Assembly (NCBI GenBank): GCA_000824805.1
Contig: CCNA01000061.1
Coordinates: forward strand, 1 to 64,000
DNA length: 64,000 nt
DNA from: Mesorhizobium sp. SOD10
GTDB taxonomy: Bacteria; Pseudomonadota; Alphaproteobacteria; Rhizobiales; Rhizobiaceae
Direction of reading: 5' to 3'
Made by a program: the position numbers and the translations under genes. The notes beneath the pieces were generated by a model. That model had not been told where the DNA came from, ran no database searches, and saw only the letters and a list, made by a program, of their open reading frames with translations. Position 1 is the first letter of the stretch, and each line of letters begins with the position of its first letter. Below are positions 52,944-61,951 of this stretch, piece by piece.

Positions 52944-54428
52944 CTATTCGGCTTTTTCGCGCTCGCCGCCGATGCCAAGCGCAGCCAGCGCAAGTGCCGG
53001 ACCACCCTGCCCGAGATGGACGAGGTGGGTGGCGACGAACTCGATCAAGGTTTGGCGCTCGGGATGGTCCTTGGCGAAGCCCGCCAGATCGAACGCGGCC
53101 GTCGTCATCTCCGCCGTCGGCAGGTTGCGGCCGAAGAGTTCGTCAAGGGCGGCGTCGAGCGGATCGGTGAAGTGACCTTCAGGCAAGCTGCCGCCGCGCG
53201 CGGCGCAGGCGGCGATCCAGGCGGCGACAACCAGCGACAGATGTTCCGGCAGCAGGCCCGCCTCCAGCCGGGCAAGCGCGGAAGCGACGATGCGCTGCGG
53301 CAGCTTCTGGCTGCCGTCATTGGCGATCTGCGCGGTGCGGTGGGCGAGCGCGGTGTTGGAAAAGCGTTGGGCGAGCTCGGCCGTGTAGGGAATCGGGTCG
53401 AGCCCGGCATCCTGCGGCAGGGTTGGAATGGCTTCGGCCCAAAGCCGGTCCACGAATTGCCGGATCGACGGATCGGCAAAGGCGCGGTCGACGGTGGCGT
53501 GGCCGCTGAGCTGGCCGAGATAGGCGATGCCGGAATGCGCGCCGTTGAGCAGCCTGAGCTTCATGTCCTCGAAGGGGCCGACATCCTCGACCATGGTGAC
53601 GCCGAATTTCTCCCAGGCCGGCCGGCCCGCCGGAAAGCGATTCTCGATCACCCATTGGCGGAACGGCTCGGTCATCACCGGCCAGGCGTCCTCGATGCCG
53701 AGCTCGTCGGCGATGCGCGCCCGGTCGGCGTCCGTGGTCGCCGGCACGATGCGGTCGACCATGGAAGACGGGAAGGCGACTTCGTCGGCGACATGGCGCG
53801 CGAGATCGGCATCGCGCAGCTTCGCGAATTCGATGAGCAGCCGGTGCAGCGTGGCGCCGTTGGCCGGCAGGTTGTCGCAGCAGAGCACGGTGAAAGGGGG
53901 CGTGCCGGCAATGCTGCGGCGCGCCAGCGCTTCGGCGAGAAAGCCATGCGCCGTCTTCGGCGATCCGGGGTTGGCGAGGTCGTGGACAATATCGGGGTGC
54001 GCACCGTCGAGCGTGCCGTCGGCTGTCCTGAGATAGGCCTTTTCGGTGATGGTGAGCGTGACGATGCGGATGCGCGGGTCGGTCAGCGCGGCGAGCACCG
54101 CGCCGGGGTCCTCCGGAGCGACGAGCAAGGACTGGATCGAACCGATCACCTGCAGCTGTTCGCCGGCGCTGTCCCGGATTGCCAGCGTGTAGAGCCCGTC
54201 CTGCGGCTTGAGCGCATCGCGCGTGTCCGGGCTGCGCAGCGAGACCCCGACGATGCTCCAATCGCTTTCGCCGTCCGCCAGGCAGGCATCGACATAGGCG
54301 GCCTGGTGGGCGCGGTGAAAAGCGCCGACGCCAAGATGTACGATGCCGGGCGTGACGTCGCGGCGGTCATAGCGCGGGATGGCGGCCGGCACATTCGCAA
54401 TCGTCAGGTTCGACAGGCGCGTCTTCAT
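52944..54428 (-). CDS. uxuB: Fructuronate reductase / mannitol dehydrogenase family (UxuB-like)
   Basis: A 494-residue NAD(H)-dependent long-chain polyol dehydrogenase. GIVHLGVGAFHRAHQAAYVD near 28 is the nucleotide-binding region and MKLRLLNGAHSGIAYLG near 300 carries the catalytic lysine and the K-x-x-x-x-N-x-x-H pattern. By sequence it could reduce D-fructuronate to mannonate or oxidise mannitol; the divergent uxaC-kduD-kdgF genes favour fructuronate reductase. The ATG at 54428 begins the family N-terminus; the longer open frame is rejected. Confidence 0.88.
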   Translation of the reverse strand: MKTRLSNLTIANVPAAIPRYDRRDVTPGIVHLGVGAFHRAHQAAYVDACLADGESDWSIVGVSLRSPDTRDALKPQDGLYTLAIRDSAGEQLQVIGSIQSLLVAPEDPGAVLAALTDPRIRIVTLTITEKAYLRTADGTLDGAHPDIVHDLANPGSPKTAHGFLAEALARRSIAGTPPFTVLCCDNLPANGATLHRLLIEFAKLRDADLARHVADEVAFPSSMVDRIVPATTDADRARIADELGIEDAWPVMTEPFRQWVIENRFPAGRPAWEKFGVTMVEDVGPFEDMKLRLLNGAHSGIAYLGQLSGHATVDRAFADPSIRQFVDRLWAEAIPTLPQDAGLDPIPYTAELAQRFSNTALAHRTAQIANDGSQKLPQRIVASALARLEAGLLPEHLSLVVAAWIAACAARGGSLPEGHFTDPLDAALDELFGRNLPTAEMTTAAFDLAGFAKDHPERQTLIEFVATHLVHLGQGGPALALAALGIGGEREKAE

Positions 54429-54557
54429 CGGATGTGAAGTCTCCAATCGCTGCGGCCAAGCCGCTCGGGGATGACGGCAAAGATGGGTGGCGGCGTAGCA
54501 CCCGCCGCGTCCGCCGACAATGGCCGCCGCAGGCGTAAGGGTGCAGCTTTTCGTGTG

Positions 54558-54586
54558 TTGACAGCATTTCCCCCGGACCCTACCGG
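54558..54586 (+). promoter_or_regulatory. Candidate promoter of uxaC-kduD-kdgF
   Basis: TTGACA at 54558 and TACCGG at 54581 are separated by 17 bp, just upstream of the uxaC ribosome site. The -10 element is poor, as expected for a regulated promoter. CGGTGGA occurs twice in the following bases. Confidence 0.3.
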
Positions 54587-54610
54587 TGGATCGGTGGAGG
54601 AGGGATCGAC

Positions 54611-56020
54611 GTGGCCGCATTGACCGATCCGAATCTGCTGTTCGCCGCCGAGGGGCGCCTGCTTTCGCTCGCCCGCGCCCTTTATGCCGGCGTGAAGGAC
54701 CTGCCCATCGTCAGCCCGCACGGCCATACCGACCCGCGCTGGTATGCCCTCAACGATCCGTTTCCGGACCCTGCGCAGCTGCTCATCGTGCCGGACCATT
54801 ACATTTTCCGGATGCTGTTCAGCCAGGGCGTGCGGCTGGAGGAACTCGGCGTGCCGACGCTCGACGGTTCGCCGGTCGAGGCCGACGGCCGCGCGATCTG
54901 GCGGCGCTTCGCCGAGCATTATCATCTCTTCCGCGGCACGCCGACGCGGCTCTGGCTCGACCATGTTTTCGAACATCTATTCGGCATCGCGGAGCCGCTC
55001 ACCGTTGCCAGCGCCGAGCGCACCTACGATGCGATCGCGACGCTGCTGCAACGCGACGACTATCGCCCGCGCGCGCTGTTCGAGCGCTTCAACATCGAGG
55101 TGATCGCCACGACCGAAGGCGCGCTCGACGACCTCAAATGGCATCGGATGATCCGCGACAGCGGCTGGAGCGGCCGCGTCGTTACCGCCTACCGGCCGGA
55201 CGCCGTCGTCGATCCCGATTTCGAGGGGTTTGCTTCCAATCTCGATCGGCTCGGCGAAATCACCGGATGCGACACCGCCAGCTGGGCCGGTTATCTCGAG
55301 GCGCACCGAAAGCGGCGCGCCTATTTCAAGGAATTCGGCGCCACTTCGTCCGATCACGGCCATCCAACCGCCGAGACCGCCAATCTCTCCGATGCGGCGG
55401 CTGAGGAGCTGTTCAACCGTATCCGCCGCGGCTCGGAAGACAGCCGCGAGCGAAAACTGTTCCGCGCCCAGATGCTGACCGAAATGGCCAAGATGAGCCG
55501 TGACGATGGCCTTGTGATGCAGATCCATCCTGGATCATGGCGCAATCATTCGCCTTCCGTTTTCCAGAAGTTCGGCCGCGACAAGGGCTTCGATATCCCG
55601 ACCCGCACCGATTATGTGACGGCGCTGAAGCCGCTGCTCGACCGCGTCGGGCTGGAGCGCGACCTCACGATCATCCTGTTCACGCTGGATGAGACCAGCT
55701 ACGCGCGCGAGCTGGCGCCGCTCGCCGGCGTCTATCCGGCGCTGAAGCTCGGACCGGCCTGGTGGTTCCACGACAGCCCGCAGGGCATGCGCCGCTTCCG
55801 TGAGATGACCACCGAGACGGCCGGCTTCTACAACACCGTCGGCTTCAACGACGACACGCGCGCCTTCCCGTCGATCCCGGCGCGCCACGACGTCGCGCGC
55901 CGCGTCGACTGCGCCTTCCTGGCGCGGCTGGTCGCCGAGCATCGACTGCGCGAGGACGAGGCGCATGAGCTGGCCGGGGAGCTGGCCTATACACTTGCCA
56001 AGAAGGCCTACCACCTGTGA
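54611..56020 (+). CDS. uxaC: Uronate isomerase (UxaC)
   Basis: A 469-residue amidohydrolase-fold enzyme that isomerises glucuronate to fructuronate and galacturonate to tagaturonate. IVSPHGHTDPRWYA near 33-46 supplies the HxH zinc site of this family, WLDHVFEHLFGI is near 118, and FALDETSY-like FTLDETSYAREL and GPAWWFHDSPQGMRRFRE near 375 form the active-site wall. It starts with GTG behind GGAGGAGGG. It heads the rightward uronate operon and is divergent from uxuB, which takes the product. Confidence 0.95.
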   Translation: MAALTDPNLLFAAEGRLLSLARALYAGVKDLPIVSPHGHTDPRWYALNDPFPDPAQLLIVPDHYIFRMLFSQGVRLEELGVPTLDGSPVEADGRAIWRRFAEHYHLFRGTPTRLWLDHVFEHLFGIAEPLTVASAERTYDAIATLLQRDDYRPRALFERFNIEVIATTEGALDDLKWHRMIRDSGWSGRVVTAYRPDAVVDPDFEGFASNLDRLGEITGCDTASWAGYLEAHRKRRAYFKEFGATSSDHGHPTAETANLSDAAAEELFNRIRRGSEDSRERKLFRAQMLTEMAKMSRDDGLVMQIHPGSWRNHSPSVFQKFGRDKGFDIPTRTDYVTALKPLLDRVGLERDLTIILFTLDETSYARELAPLAGVYPALKLGPAWWFHDSPQGMRRFREMTTETAGFYNTVGFNDDTRAFPSIPARHDVARRVDCAFLARLVAEHRLREDEAHELAGELAYTLAKKAYHL

Positions 56021-56072
56021 AGACGCGCCGCCACGGATTGACCGGTCCCTCGATCGGCGGCAAGCGAAAGGC

Positions 56073-56849
56073 ATGACCAGCTTGAGCGATCTTTCCGCCT
56101 TCAGCCTCACGGGCAAGCGCATCCTGGTCACCGGCGCCAACACGGGCATCGGGCAAGGCATAGCTGTCTCGATCGCACGCGCCGGCGGCCTGATCGTCGG
56201 CGTCGGCCGTTCGGCGATGGATGACACCGCCGGGAAAGTCGCGGCCGCGGGCGGCAGCTTCGAGGCGGTGAAGGCCGACCTCGGCGACCCGGCCGAGGCC
56301 GCCGCCATGCTCGACCGGGTCTGGGGCGAGAGCGGCCCGCTCGACGGCCTCGTCAACAATGCCGGCATCATCCGGCGCGCCGACGCGGTCGAGCTGAGCG
56401 AAGCCGATTGGGACGAGGTGATGGACGTCAATTTGAAGACGGTGTTTCGCCTTTGCCAGGGTTTCGCCCGGCGCGTGCTGGCGGAGCCCGGACGGCGCGG
56501 CAAGATCGTCAACATCGCCTCGGTGCTGAGTTTCCAGGGCGGCATCCGCGTCGCTTCCTATACGGCCTCGAAACACGGCGTGCTCGGCCTCACAAGGCTG
56601 CTCGCCTGCGAATGGGCGGCGAAAGGCATCAGCGTCAACGGCATCGCGCCGGGCTATATCGAGACCAACAACACCGAGGCGCTGCGCGCCGATCCGGACC
56701 GCAGCGCCGCGATCCTCGGGCGCATCCCCGCGGCGCGCTGGGGCCGGCCCGACGATATAGGCGACGCGGCCGTGTTCCTGCTGGCGCGGGCGTCGGACTA
56801 TATGCACGGCGCGATGGTGCCGATCGATGGCGGCTGGCTGGCGCGGTGA
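56073..56849 (+). CDS. kduD: KduD-like short-chain dehydrogenase
   Basis: A 258-residue SDR oxidoreductase. TGANTGIGQGIAVSIARAGG near 18 is the NAD(P) site, LVNNAGIIRRADA near 92, and the catalytic Ser, Tyr and Lys are in NIASVLSFQGG and SYTASKHG near 146-165. The close fit to KduD (GIRVASYTASK, PGYIETNNTEALRAD, ending DGGWLAR) suggests 2-dehydro-3-deoxy-D-gluconate 5-dehydrogenase, acting on uronate breakdown products. It lies 52 nt after uxaC. Confidence 0.9.
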   Translation: MTSLSDLSAFSLTGKRILVTGANTGIGQGIAVSIARAGGLIVGVGRSAMDDTAGKVAAAGGSFEAVKADLGDPAEAAAMLDRVWGESGPLDGLVNNAGIIRRADAVELSEADWDEVMDVNLKTVFRLCQGFARRVLAEPGRRGKIVNIASVLSFQGGIRVASYTASKHGVLGLTRLLACEWAAKGISVNGIAPGYIETNNTEALRADPDRSAAILGRIPAARWGRPDDIGDAAVFLLARASDYMHGAMVPIDGGWLAR

Positions 56850-56919
56850 CGGTTTCCCGTCGGAAAACCGCGCCGCGCCTTTCCTGGAATTGTTTTACAA
56901 GCCGAACGGAAGCTGAGCG

Positions 56920-57252
56920 ATGACCGAGATCTTTTCCCATGCGGGCGAAAAAGCCTGGGAGCCGACGCCGGACGGCAACAGGCGGCGCGTTCTGGTGCAC
57001 ACCGATGAATTGATGATGGTCGAGTTCGCCTTCGACAAGGGCGGCGTCGGCGGGCTGCATTCGCACCCGCATGTCCAGGCAAGCTATGTCGCCGAGGGAC
57101 GCTTCGAGGTCACCATCGATGGCCGGTCGGAGATCCTCGAAGCGGGAAGCAGCTTCATCGTGCCGTCCAATCTCGTGCACGGCGTCAAGGCGCTGGAAGC
57201 CGGGCGGCTGATCGACAGCTTCGCGCCTCATCGGGCCGATTTCCTGGGCTGA
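56920..57252 (+). CDS. kdgF: KdgF-like cupin, unsaturated uronate linearisation
   Basis: A 110-residue single-domain cupin. Metal-binding histidines lie in GLHSHPHVQASYVAEGRFEV near 47-66, and the closing His in VPSNLVHGVKAL near 88. This is the KdgF pattern; KdgF helps convert 4,5-unsaturated monouronates from pectin or alginate cleavage to the linear ketone that KduI/KduD-type enzymes use. It is last in the uxaC-kduD-kdgF operon and is followed by a strong terminator. Confidence 0.88.
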   Translation: MTEIFSHAGEKAWEPTPDGNRRRVLVHTDELMMVEFAFDKGGVGGLHSHPHVQASYVAEGRFEVTIDGRSEILEAGSSFIVPSNLVHGVKALEAGRLIDSFAPHRADFLG

Positions 57253-57397: not shown

Positions 57398-58024
57398 TCA
57401 GCGCTGCTGCAGCGCCAGGCGCATGCCGAGCGCGCAATAGATGCCGCCGACCACCTTGCCCTGCCATTTCAGCACCGCCGGATTGCGGCGCAGGAAGGAA
57501 CCCAGGCCGACCGCGCTGACGGCGAAGACGATTGTGCTGAAGAGCCCGAGCAGGACGAAGATGATGCCGAGCAGCATCAGCTGCAGCACCACGAAACCGC
57601 CTTGCGGATGCACGAATTGGGGCAGGAAAGCCAGGAAGAACAAAGCGGTCTTCGGATTGAGCACCTCGGTCAGGATCGCCTGCCGGAAGGCTTTGCCCGC
57701 GGAGATGGGCAGCGTCCTGCCTGCCAGGCCGGCCGGCGCCTTTTCGAGAATGGCGCGGATGCCGAGATAGACGAGATAGGCCGCGCCGATATATTTGACG
57801 ATGCTGAACAGCATCGCCGAGGCGGCGATGATGGCCGAGATGCCGACGATGGCCATGATGGTGTGGATCACATCGCCCGCGGCGATGCCGGCACCGGTGG
57901 CGATGCCGACCTTCGTGCCCGAGCTCGTCGCCCGCGCGACCGTGAGCAGGGTCGCCGGCCCCGGAATGAAGACGAAGCCGAACACCACCGCGACGTAAGT
58001 GATGAGCGTGGCGGGATCGATCAT
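57398..58024 (-). CDS. LysE/RhtB family exporter (second in window)
   Basis: A 208-residue inner-membrane protein with six hydrophobic segments. FVFIPGPATLLTVARATSSG at residues 17-36 is the family signature, and VLNPKTALFFLAFLPQFV near 117 the conserved middle. The substrate is unknown. AGGA lies 9 nt before the ATG at 58024. It is convergent with the kdgF operon. Confidence 0.9.
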   Translation of the reverse strand: MIDPATLITYVAVVFGFVFIPGPATLLTVARATSSGTKVGIATGAGIAAGDVIHTIMAIVGISAIIAASAMLFSIVKYIGAAYLVYLGIRAILEKAPAGLAGRTLPISAGKAFRQAILTEVLNPKTALFFLAFLPQFVHPQGGFVVLQLMLLGIIFVLLGLFSTIVFAVSAVGLGSFLRRNPAVLKWQGKVVGGIYCALGMRLALQQR

Positions 58025-58473
58025 GCGAAGGTTCCTTTTGCACTCGCTGCCGGCAGCGGAAGGCTTGGCCTTATAGCACCGCACGATGCGCCGGTGGAAC
58101 TCTCACCGGCGGCGATGTCGGCGTCGCGCGACTCGAAGCGGAATGACGCGGCGGCCTGCCAGGCTGCGACGATTTCACAAGCGTCATCACTTCGCCTGCG
58201 CGGTGTCTGTTCGGGATCGATCGGCATTGGCTTGGACCTTCCGTTTCGACGCATGTCGTTGTATCGAAACGACAAGACCGAACGATGCCAGAACCGGCAA
58301 TCGGGCCAAGGCGCCTGCGCGCGCGGCGCAGGCCGGATCAATCCTTGAAGGGGGGCTGGCTTGGAAGAGCAAGCGACGCGGGAGAGCCGGCGAAACCGGG
58401 CTGGAACGTGCAGGCCCCATAACAGGCGGAGTTGTCGTCGGATGGGAGCTGCCGGCCGGAGGCAGCCCGACGC
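58025..58473. other. Gene-free 449-bp interval
   Basis: No convincing gene lies on either strand. It must hold the promoters of the leftward LysE gene and the rightward fusion gene. At 58242-58271 CGTTTCGA is inverted as TCGAAACG with 14 bp between, a possible operator. The longer open frames are high-GC artefacts without start sites. Confidence 0.45.
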
Positions 58474-60115
58474 ATGATCTCGCAGCCCATCCTCACCGCA
58501 ACACGGCATGGACTTATCGTGACGCCGGACATGTTGCCGGGCAGCGACGAAATCAACATCAACGGGCCGTCGCTGATCCGCATGCCCGACTGGGCGTCGG
58601 GACGGCTGGGCGCTTACCATCTCTACTTCGCCGACCATGGCGGCTCCTATATTCGCCTCGCCTACGCGGATTCGATCGAAGGTCCGTGGCACATCCATCC
58701 CGGCGGCGCGCTGTCCCTCGGTCAATGTCGGTTCATCAAGGAGCACATCGCGTCTCCCGATGTTCATGTCGATCAGCGGAACCGTCGCCTCGTCATGTAT
58801 TTTCATGGACCGGCGGAAAGCGGGGAAGGCCAGATGACCTTTGCCGCGACATCCGCTGACGGCCTTCATTTCAATCCGCTTCCCGAGCCGCTTGGGCCTT
58901 CTTATGCGCGCTTCTTCCACCACGACCAATGGTGGTACGGTTTTCTGGGGACGGGAAACGTCACCGTCTTCCGTTCCGGGACCGGCATCTCCGATTTCGA
59001 ACAAGGCCCGGTTATCCTGCCTCCCATAAAGCGGCGCCCGACCCTACGGCATCTTGCACTGCAGAAATCCGGCCGCTGGCTGCGGGTCTATTACACACGC
59101 AGGGGCGACGCGCCGGAACGGATCCTTCACGGCGCGATCGATCTCGCCGAGGACTGGCGAAACTGGACGGTGCGGGGCGAAACGGAACTGCTGCGGCCGC
59201 AGACGGACTTCGAAGGAGCGGGTTTGCCGGTCCGTCCCAGCCGGGGCGGGGCGGCCGAAGGCAAGGAAAACGCGTTGCGCGATCCTGCGATTTTCGAGGA
59301 GAATGGCCGCACCTGGCTTCTCTACTCCGTCGCCGGAGAGAGCGGCATCGCTTTGGCCGAGATTACGTCGAAGGACGTCCCTGCCAGAGCAGCCCTAACG
59401 CCGGTCACCATTCTGCGCCGCGGCGCAAGGCGATTTTTTTGGCGCCTGCGCAAGGCCGCACGCCGGCTGCCCTCGGCGATGACCTTTCGCAAACGAATCT
59501 TCATCGCGGGCTGTGCTCGCAGCGGAACCACGCTCAGCCGTCGTTTGATGGCGTGTTTCGACGATACCTATGTCCATGCGGACGAAGCGCCCTATCAGGC
59601 GCTGCTCGAACTGGATCGCCCCCAATTCAATCTGGTCGTCAAACGCACTCATGAAAGCCACAAGGACATCGAGCATCTGCCTGCCTCGGTGGGGTTGATC
59701 TATTGCGTGAGGCATCCTTTCGATGTGCTCACCAGCTCGCATCCGGAGACGGTGAACGAGCGGCGTTTTCATGTAACGACCGAACGCTGGGAGGCGGAGT
59801 ACGACGGATTGATGCGCCTTAGACAGGCTCAGCCCGAAAGAGCCGTTTTCTATTTGCGCTATGAAAGCTGATCGCCGAACCGGATATCGTCCAGGGCAGG
59901 ATCGCTCGATCGTTCGATCTTTCACCGGTCACCCTGTACAGCCGGGATGCGGATAATCCGATACGGGCGACGTCGCTGAGAAAATGGGAGCGCAATGAAG
60001 AATTCCGGACCTATCTGCATGGCCTACCTGCGGCGTTCCTCGCCCGCGTGGAAAGCTTCTGCCGCGAATTCGGCTACGATATGCCGGGCCACCTGTTGAC
60101 CACGGAAGCGCGGTG

Positions 60116-60116
<1 letters not shown>
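58474..60116 (+). pseudogene. Glycosidase-like beta-propeller fused to a sulfotransferase, frameshifted near the end
   Basis: Residues 1 to about 310 look like a five-bladed propeller of the GH43/GH32 type (INGPSLIRMPDW, YHLYFADHGGSYIRLAYADS, SPDVHVDQRNRRLVMYFHGP, RDPAIFEENGRTWLLYS). Residues about 340-465 start a sulfotransferase: IAGCARSGTTLSRRLM (5'-phosphosulfate loop) near 345 and CVRHPFDVLTSSHP near 410. The frame stops at 59871 after RYES. One base away it continues LIAEPDIVQGRIARSF, RKWERNEEFRTYL, FGYDMPGHL to a TGA at 60116, the usual sulfotransferase end. One missing base explains the break; the restored protein is about 547 residues. GGAGG lies 11 nt before the ATG. Confidence 0.75.

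Positions 60117-61951
<1,835 letters not shown>

Follow-up and report, generated by a model that had tools for sequence, protein, structure and literature searches.

The stretch of DNA analyzed here (hereafter 'the window', 64,000 nucleotides) is part of contig C61 of a 6.5-Mb genome, G000, from the genus Mesorhizobium. On its forward strand, an open reading frame (ORF) of 465 amino acids runs from an ATG at 58474, preceded by GGAGG at 58458-58462, to a stop at 59871, and joins an N-terminal propeller domain (P) to a PAPS-type sulfotransferase domain (S). The fusion of a five-bladed propeller to a sulfotransferase had been claimed in a first-pass annotation of the locus, and is borne out by the ORF, by Pfam and by its presence in 23 genomes of the genus; both phosphosulfate motifs that had been ascribed to S are also present in the window (Table 1). 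Genes of uronate-catabolism type and, on the other strand, a LysE-type gene come before the fusion, and recQ follows it. Genes that resemble ATP synthase subunits by eye are located a few kb upstream of the fusion.

Table 1. Features of the fusion gene and its surroundings in the window.
Feature	Position	Strand	Evidence
P domain, five-bladed beta-propeller, residues 1-302	58474-59379	+	AF2 model of intact relative L029; Z 27 to GH43, GH130
Linker, residues 303-335, low confidence, variable in sequence and length	59380-59478	+	pLDDT 47-76 in blocks of residues 301-350 (L029 model); gapped alignment columns
S domain up to the break, residues 336-465, PAPS-type sulfotransferase	59479-59868	+	Sulfotransfer_3 35.8 bits; L029 S model Z 13.6 to TPST1
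5'-phosphosulfate loop GCARSGTTL, residues 346-354	59509-59535	+	Sequence, alignment
3'-phosphate motif RHPFDVLTS, residues 413-421	59710-59736	+	First Arg and last Ser invariant in 20/20 S sequences
Frame-break site, one base fewer than four relatives, stop directly after	59862-59872	+	Alignment to relatives
Rest of S domain, in another frame and out of frame with the rest in the window copy	59865-60116	+	Open frame; S-profile match; dN/dS
Conserved RKWE motif within the S tail	59979-59990	+	S tail in other frame
recQ helicase, syntenic neighbor, outside the system	60116-61951	+	Pfam DEAD, Helicase_C, RQC, HRDC; distribution
LysE-type translocator, neighbor recurring at the locus	57398-58024	-	Pfam; layout in relatives
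Uronate-catabolism-type genes (Mannitol_dh, UxaC, short-chain dehydrogenase, cupin), context only	52944-57252	.	Pfam

The profile search that had been proposed for the second half of the protein placed it in the Pfam family Sulfotransfer_3, where even the truncated copy of the window exceeds the cut-off of 27 bits. All 20 aligned S sequences retain Gly-Thr in the 5' loop as well as Arg and Ser in the 3' motif, and we take the two motifs to have the roles of phosphosulfate (PAPS) motifs. When the S domain of the intact relative L029 was modeled (pLDDT 81.0, pTM 0.80), it superimposed on TPST1 over 194 residues (Z 13.6, rmsd 3.5), and the best matches of the S profile in the PDB were TPST1 (2.5e-10) and CurM (2.6e-10). 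Since the best solved sequence relatives of S are thus tyrosylprotein sulfotransferases and CurM, a peptide or small-molecule acceptor is possible. The core of S is short, with a cut of 214 amino acids compared with 247-303 in the best TPST-, CurM- and 3rnl-type chains. An APS kinase match (236.9 bits, in a 720-residue frame) was found in the same genome, so that PAPS can be made. S would transfer sulfate from PAPS.

The S domain is incomplete in the window copy. Near 59868, the window has one base fewer than the four close relatives aligned with it, and the last ~80 residues of S are out of frame; this agrees with the single missing base, and the loss of about 82 residues, that the annotation had described. 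The two S pieces match the S profile with 249 and 135 bits, and the stop of the tail overlaps the ATG of recQ at 60116 by one base, also as described. The accompanying suggestion that the full-length frame was once under selection is supported by the 21 intact fusions found among 146 genomes of the genus. We calculated dN/dS (Nei-Gojobori) between the window and six relatives, which gave 0.19-0.23 for P; S gave 0.09-0.17 up to the break and 0.12-0.39 beyond it. The corresponding medians among seven intact relatives (21 pairs) were 0.21, 0.10 and 0.22, with a range of 0.12-0.57 for the last part. The S tail of the window therefore shows no sign of long neutral decay, and given that its dN/dS lies within the range of intact relatives, the break is either young or an error of sequencing or assembly. 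Because the break removes the C-terminal part of S together with the conserved RKWE motif, the window copy is not expected to sulfate, barring a sequencing error at this site; it is probably inactive, or misread. We are evenly divided as to whether the gene is a young pseudogene, a status that would concern the window copy only and would be compatible with every functional reading given below. The frame break itself speaks for it, as does a stop codon, in frame, within the corresponding stretch of S in a second genome, while the dN/dS of the tail, inside the intact-relative range, and the possibility of a one-base error in a draft assembly speak against it. In that second genome, the MAG Mesorhizobium sp. 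65-26 (L059:9393-9395), the stop is located about ten codons beyond the break point of the window. Both truncations cut off the RKWE segment, and the stop in L059 suggests that loss of the C-terminal part of S is tolerated there too.

We modeled the full-length protein of L029 with AF2 on a 32-row alignment. The model had a mean pLDDT of 85.6 and a pTM of 0.58; its propeller is confident (pLDDT >90 in 25 of the first 30 ten-residue blocks), whereas the placement of P and S relative to each other is left uncertain at this pTM. The modeled P has the five-bladed fold that is shared with GH43 and with GH130. GH43 headed the Foldseek ranking, and the structural scores to GH43 (3qz4: Z 27.1, rmsd 2.5, 254 residues) and to GH130 (5b0q: Z 27.1, rmsd 2.6, 266 residues; 9fj8: Z 27.0, rmsd 2.9, 269 residues) are ties. 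By sequence, P is weakly related to GH43 5a8c, with an E-value of 7.1e-5, and a GH43 hint was obtained in Pfam for 23 of 36 P members (best E 1e-4). However, the scores of the window (14.1 bits) and of L029 (16.6 bits) stay below the Pfam GH43 cut-off of 32.2. The earlier description of a GH43/GH32-style propeller is supported as to the fold, which is GH43-like. NCBIfam gave weak matches only, each to one or two P members, three of the nine families being arabinanases, and the P family is without a name in the Pfam and NCBIfam copies searched. When the P profile was compared with six GH130 sequences of the order by hhalign, the best probability was 1.5%, and PF04041 was absent from the families that the 36 P members gave at an E-value of 0.1. 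A single-sequence phmmer search of the PDB gave antibody chains only, which we took as spurious.

GH43 enzymes keep an Asp-Asp-Glu triad (Asp base, Asp modulator, Glu acid) at the blade starts, before the blade prolines. The residues that precede the blade prolines of P are Gly31, Ser94, Arg192-His193 and Asp270, with no acid in blade 3. Given a single Asp at these positions, no rotation of the blades would yield the GH43 triad, which, as far as can be judged from the sequence, is absent from P. The best profile match between P and GH43 needs a circular permutation (71% probability, E 3.7e-5, 92 columns; 15% without permutation). In this alignment, D270 pairs with a GH43 Asp, and the GH43 Glu falls on the N30-G-P site, where Asn, Gln, Cys and Glu all occur; the triad is therefore still incomplete. 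We rejected a plain GH43 hydrolase on the missing triad together with the sub-threshold Pfam scores, and the glycan-trimming hydrolase of GH43/GH32 type that had been envisaged is not upheld, the triad checked being that of GH43. Nevertheless, four acidic residues (E215, E247, D270 and E289) and seven His or Arg residues (H55, R61, H91, H111, R146, H193 and R269) are invariant in all 36 P sequences, which come from several phyla and include the fused ones. The search for Asp/Glu catalytic residues in the propeller thus gave a divided answer, namely no GH43 triad but four invariant acids, and the invariant acidic, His and Arg residues make P unlike a decayed domain.

We searched 146 Mesorhizobium genomes for P and S by sequence and read the categories from the match table. 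A match to either domain was found in 50 genomes. The fusion, that is, one match spanning P and S, was present in 23, of which 21 show no internal stop, one (G391) has a single TAA, and one is the frameshifted window genome. Nine further genomes (G011, G027, G043, G047, G392, G393, G401, G405 and G429) have S and P as separate neighbors only, some of these matches containing a stop, and in G014 S and a distant P are on different contigs. Seventeen of the 50 have S only, and none of the 146 has P only. In other words, all 33 P-bearing genomes of the genus also have S (fused in 23, adjacent in nine and on different contigs in one), whereas S is not strictly dependent on P. The fusion is accompanied by separate S and P genes in G032, G036 and G403 (the S of G403 being broken), and by one further S in G412. 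The annotation had named, as grounds for its refutation, separate halves in close relatives together with a fusion unique to this sequence; separate halves do exist in relatives, but the fusion, sought in related genomes as had been advised, is not unique. Named loci that carry this fusion bear the label Mesorhizobium, except for one MAG labeled Hyphomicrobiales. As for individual loci, Mesorhizobium sp. M2D.F.Ca.ET.226.01.1.1 (L050:5295-6790) carries an intact fusion as well as a broken separate S adjoining an unbroken separate P. In G010 (L044), the S-only match contains a stop and runs on upstream into the terminal part of P; it is perhaps what is left of a P that has been lost.

Of the 36 S domains placed in a tree, the 17 fused ones form one clade (100/99), which is nearest to stand-alone S genes (87/86); most separate S genes with an adjoining P are placed further out. 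On the best P tree, fused P requires two changes, and fused P forms one group in 16% of the bootstrap trees, so that the P tree leaves room for a single origin of fused P. The locus is a mosaic: among 22 genomes with a RecQ at least 92% identical to that of the window (G403, with a recQ match split in two, is left out), 10 have the fusion, five have S only and seven have neither. The GC3 of the fusion gene, 0.71, is the lowest of the 43 window genes of at least 150 amino acids predicted by our own gene caller, the mean of the others being 0.85. The lowest GC3 and the mosaic presence at the locus fit an accessory gene, and the low GC3 is compatible with a lateral origin.

The fullest layout in relatives is S, P, LysE, fusion and recQ, others being without some of these parts. 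Judged by match ends, 17 of the 23 genomes have at most 50 bp between the end of the fusion and recQ, both on the same strand; the distance is 172-263 bp in three (G350, G397 and G418), and the fusion is not directly upstream of recQ in the remaining three (26-27 kb apart in G037 and G377; recQ on the other side in G391). The coupling to recQ proposed in the annotation looks like synteny, since recQ occurs in 137 of 144 genomes of the genus and P or S in a minority, 50 of 146. We therefore rejected a functional link, although the close spacing in 17 genomes runs counter to this view.

P is also found outside the genus. Within the order, the surroundings of P were examined in seven other genomes (G078, G091, G095, G098, G123, G171 and G315, some with flanks of 1.5 kb only); a sulfotransferase adjoins P in two of these, and the other five showed no S beside P. 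In G123, which is assigned to a different family of this order, S comes after P (23.5 bits to Sulfotransfer_3, under the cut-off of 27) among housekeeping genes, as judged by eye. In G315 (L139:1178-9988), the P gene overlaps one whose product has a P-loop resembling that of sulfotransferases (by eye; no Pfam match); a Sulfotransfer_3 gene (90 bits) comes next, and genes for GT2, PIG-L, an acetyltransferase and a methyltransferase are located within 8 kb on both strands. This gene group resembles a surface-glycan cluster. Further afield, P corresponds to a cross-phylum family of proteins of ~300 amino acids (L068-L127), with records labeled Acidobacteria, Chloroflexi, Gemmatimonadetes, Planctomycetota, several proteobacterial groups, Amycolatopsis and Paenibacillus. 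No S match was found in these 60 loci, many of which are short. The neighbors of P in other phyla have no common theme, either among ten neighbors in one set or among 65 in another, picked from 150 listed (60 of the 65 on the strand of P); they are unrelated to glycans or sulfate, with NHL repeats in seven, lysine-decarboxylase-like proteins in five and each other listed family in at most three. In the Chloroflexi loci L105 and L110, P comes directly after a gene for an oligopeptide-type ABC transporter ATPase (Pfam), and L106, L111, L112 and L122 have the same layout, judged by layout alone. Plasmid records contain one hypothetical protein matching P, from the archaeon Natrononativus, and no S match, and phage records gave three weak matches to part of P.

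We propose that the product of the intact gene is an enzyme that works in the cytosol and sulfates a saccharide which the propeller holds or processes, a proposal whose chances of being right or wrong we consider equal. The central pocket of the N-terminal P domain would accommodate an acceptor of sugar type, which P may in addition process, and the C-terminal S domain would bind PAPS and move sulfate to this acceptor. The likely target would be a precursor of a saccharide that is exported or displayed on the surface. The Nod-like saccharides also suggested in the annotation gained no support from the domains, genomes and neighborhoods compared. The N-termini of the fusion proteins show no signal peptide by eye. 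The proposal draws on the fusion in 23 of 146 genomes, on the single clade of fused S, on the presence of S in all 33 P genomes, on the GH43- and GH130-like fold of P together with the motifs and fold of S and the APS kinase, and on the position of P beside a sulfotransferase in G123 and G315. Counted against it are the TPST and CurM relatives of S, the occurrence of S without P in 17 of the 50 genomes, the unrelated neighbors of P in other phyla, the 60 P loci L068-L127 that gave no S match, the five of seven genomes of the order that showed no S beside P, and the uncertain placement of the two domains in the model (pTM 0.58).

The main rival of saccharide sulfation by a P that holds the sugar is a truly bifunctional fusion, in which P itself is catalytically active on carbohydrates, through an active site unlike that of GH43, and prepares the sugar for S. 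We consider this a substantial possibility, though one that falls short of even chances. The 11 residues invariant in all 36 P sequences, the innermost strands of the model, which start at or beside such residues, and the GH130 phosphorylases among the nearest folds all argue for it, whereas P matches no known catalytic arrangement in its sequence, and the comparison with six GH130 sequences gave the low probability cited above. Somewhat more tentatively, P could belong to an unnamed cross-phylum propeller family with its own active site, and the bifunctional fusion would select or alter a sugar and then sulfate it through a compact S that borrows acceptor recognition from P. In that reading, the pocket of P would be rich in invariant His and Arg, and the sugar is perhaps a charged one.

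Two other explanations appear unlikely. One is that neighboring genes simply merged and the domains act independently; the separate S and P genes that lie side by side in nine fusion-less genomes speak for it, as does the poorly conserved linker. However, 21 intact copies have been kept with low dN/dS in both halves, and two genomes from outside the genus again have P next to a sulfotransferase. We consider it similarly improbable that S sulfates a peptide or small metabolite, with P as a structural or regulatory partner. The best PDB profile matches of S, TPST1 and CurM, point in this direction, but the fold of P is that of sugar-active families, glycosyltransferase and PIG-L deacetylase genes accompany P in G315, and NodH, a glycolipid sulfotransferase, belongs to the same family, Sulfotransfer_3 (PF13469), according to PMC11625862.

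The P-S architecture is new, while both domains are of known kinds; no description of a propeller-sulfotransferase architecture was found in the literature searched, which was mostly without subscription journals. With other Sulfotransfer_3 proteins, S shares a Pfam match above the cut-off, the loop GCxRSGTTL, the 3' motif and the fold of TPST1, but it is fused behind a propeller and has a short core; NodH is a member of this Pfam family. LpsS, the lipopolysaccharide sulfotransferase of Sinorhizobium meliloti, is likewise a rhizobial sulfotransferase and modifies a surface glycan; however, it is listed as a Stf0-family protein in PMC12445080. P has the five-bladed propeller of the GH43 glycosidases (3qz4, 5a8c) and a weak sequence relation to them, but differs in the Asp-Asp-Glu positions and, in L029 and the window, in its sub-threshold Pfam score. 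With the GH130 mannoside phosphorylases (5b0q, 9fj8) it shares the fold (Z 27), whereas no sequence-profile relation was found to the six GH130 sequences compared. Activity has been shown for a GH43-like group that lies outside CAZy, but that enzyme keeps its base and acid, unlike P (PMC11022575). If the proposed saccharide sulfation is true, then one cytosolic protein would couple sugar recognition to sulfation in root-nodule bacteria, whose interaction with the host is affected by sulfated signals and surface glycans. The proposal would also provide a first functional lead for the unnamed propeller family to which P belongs.
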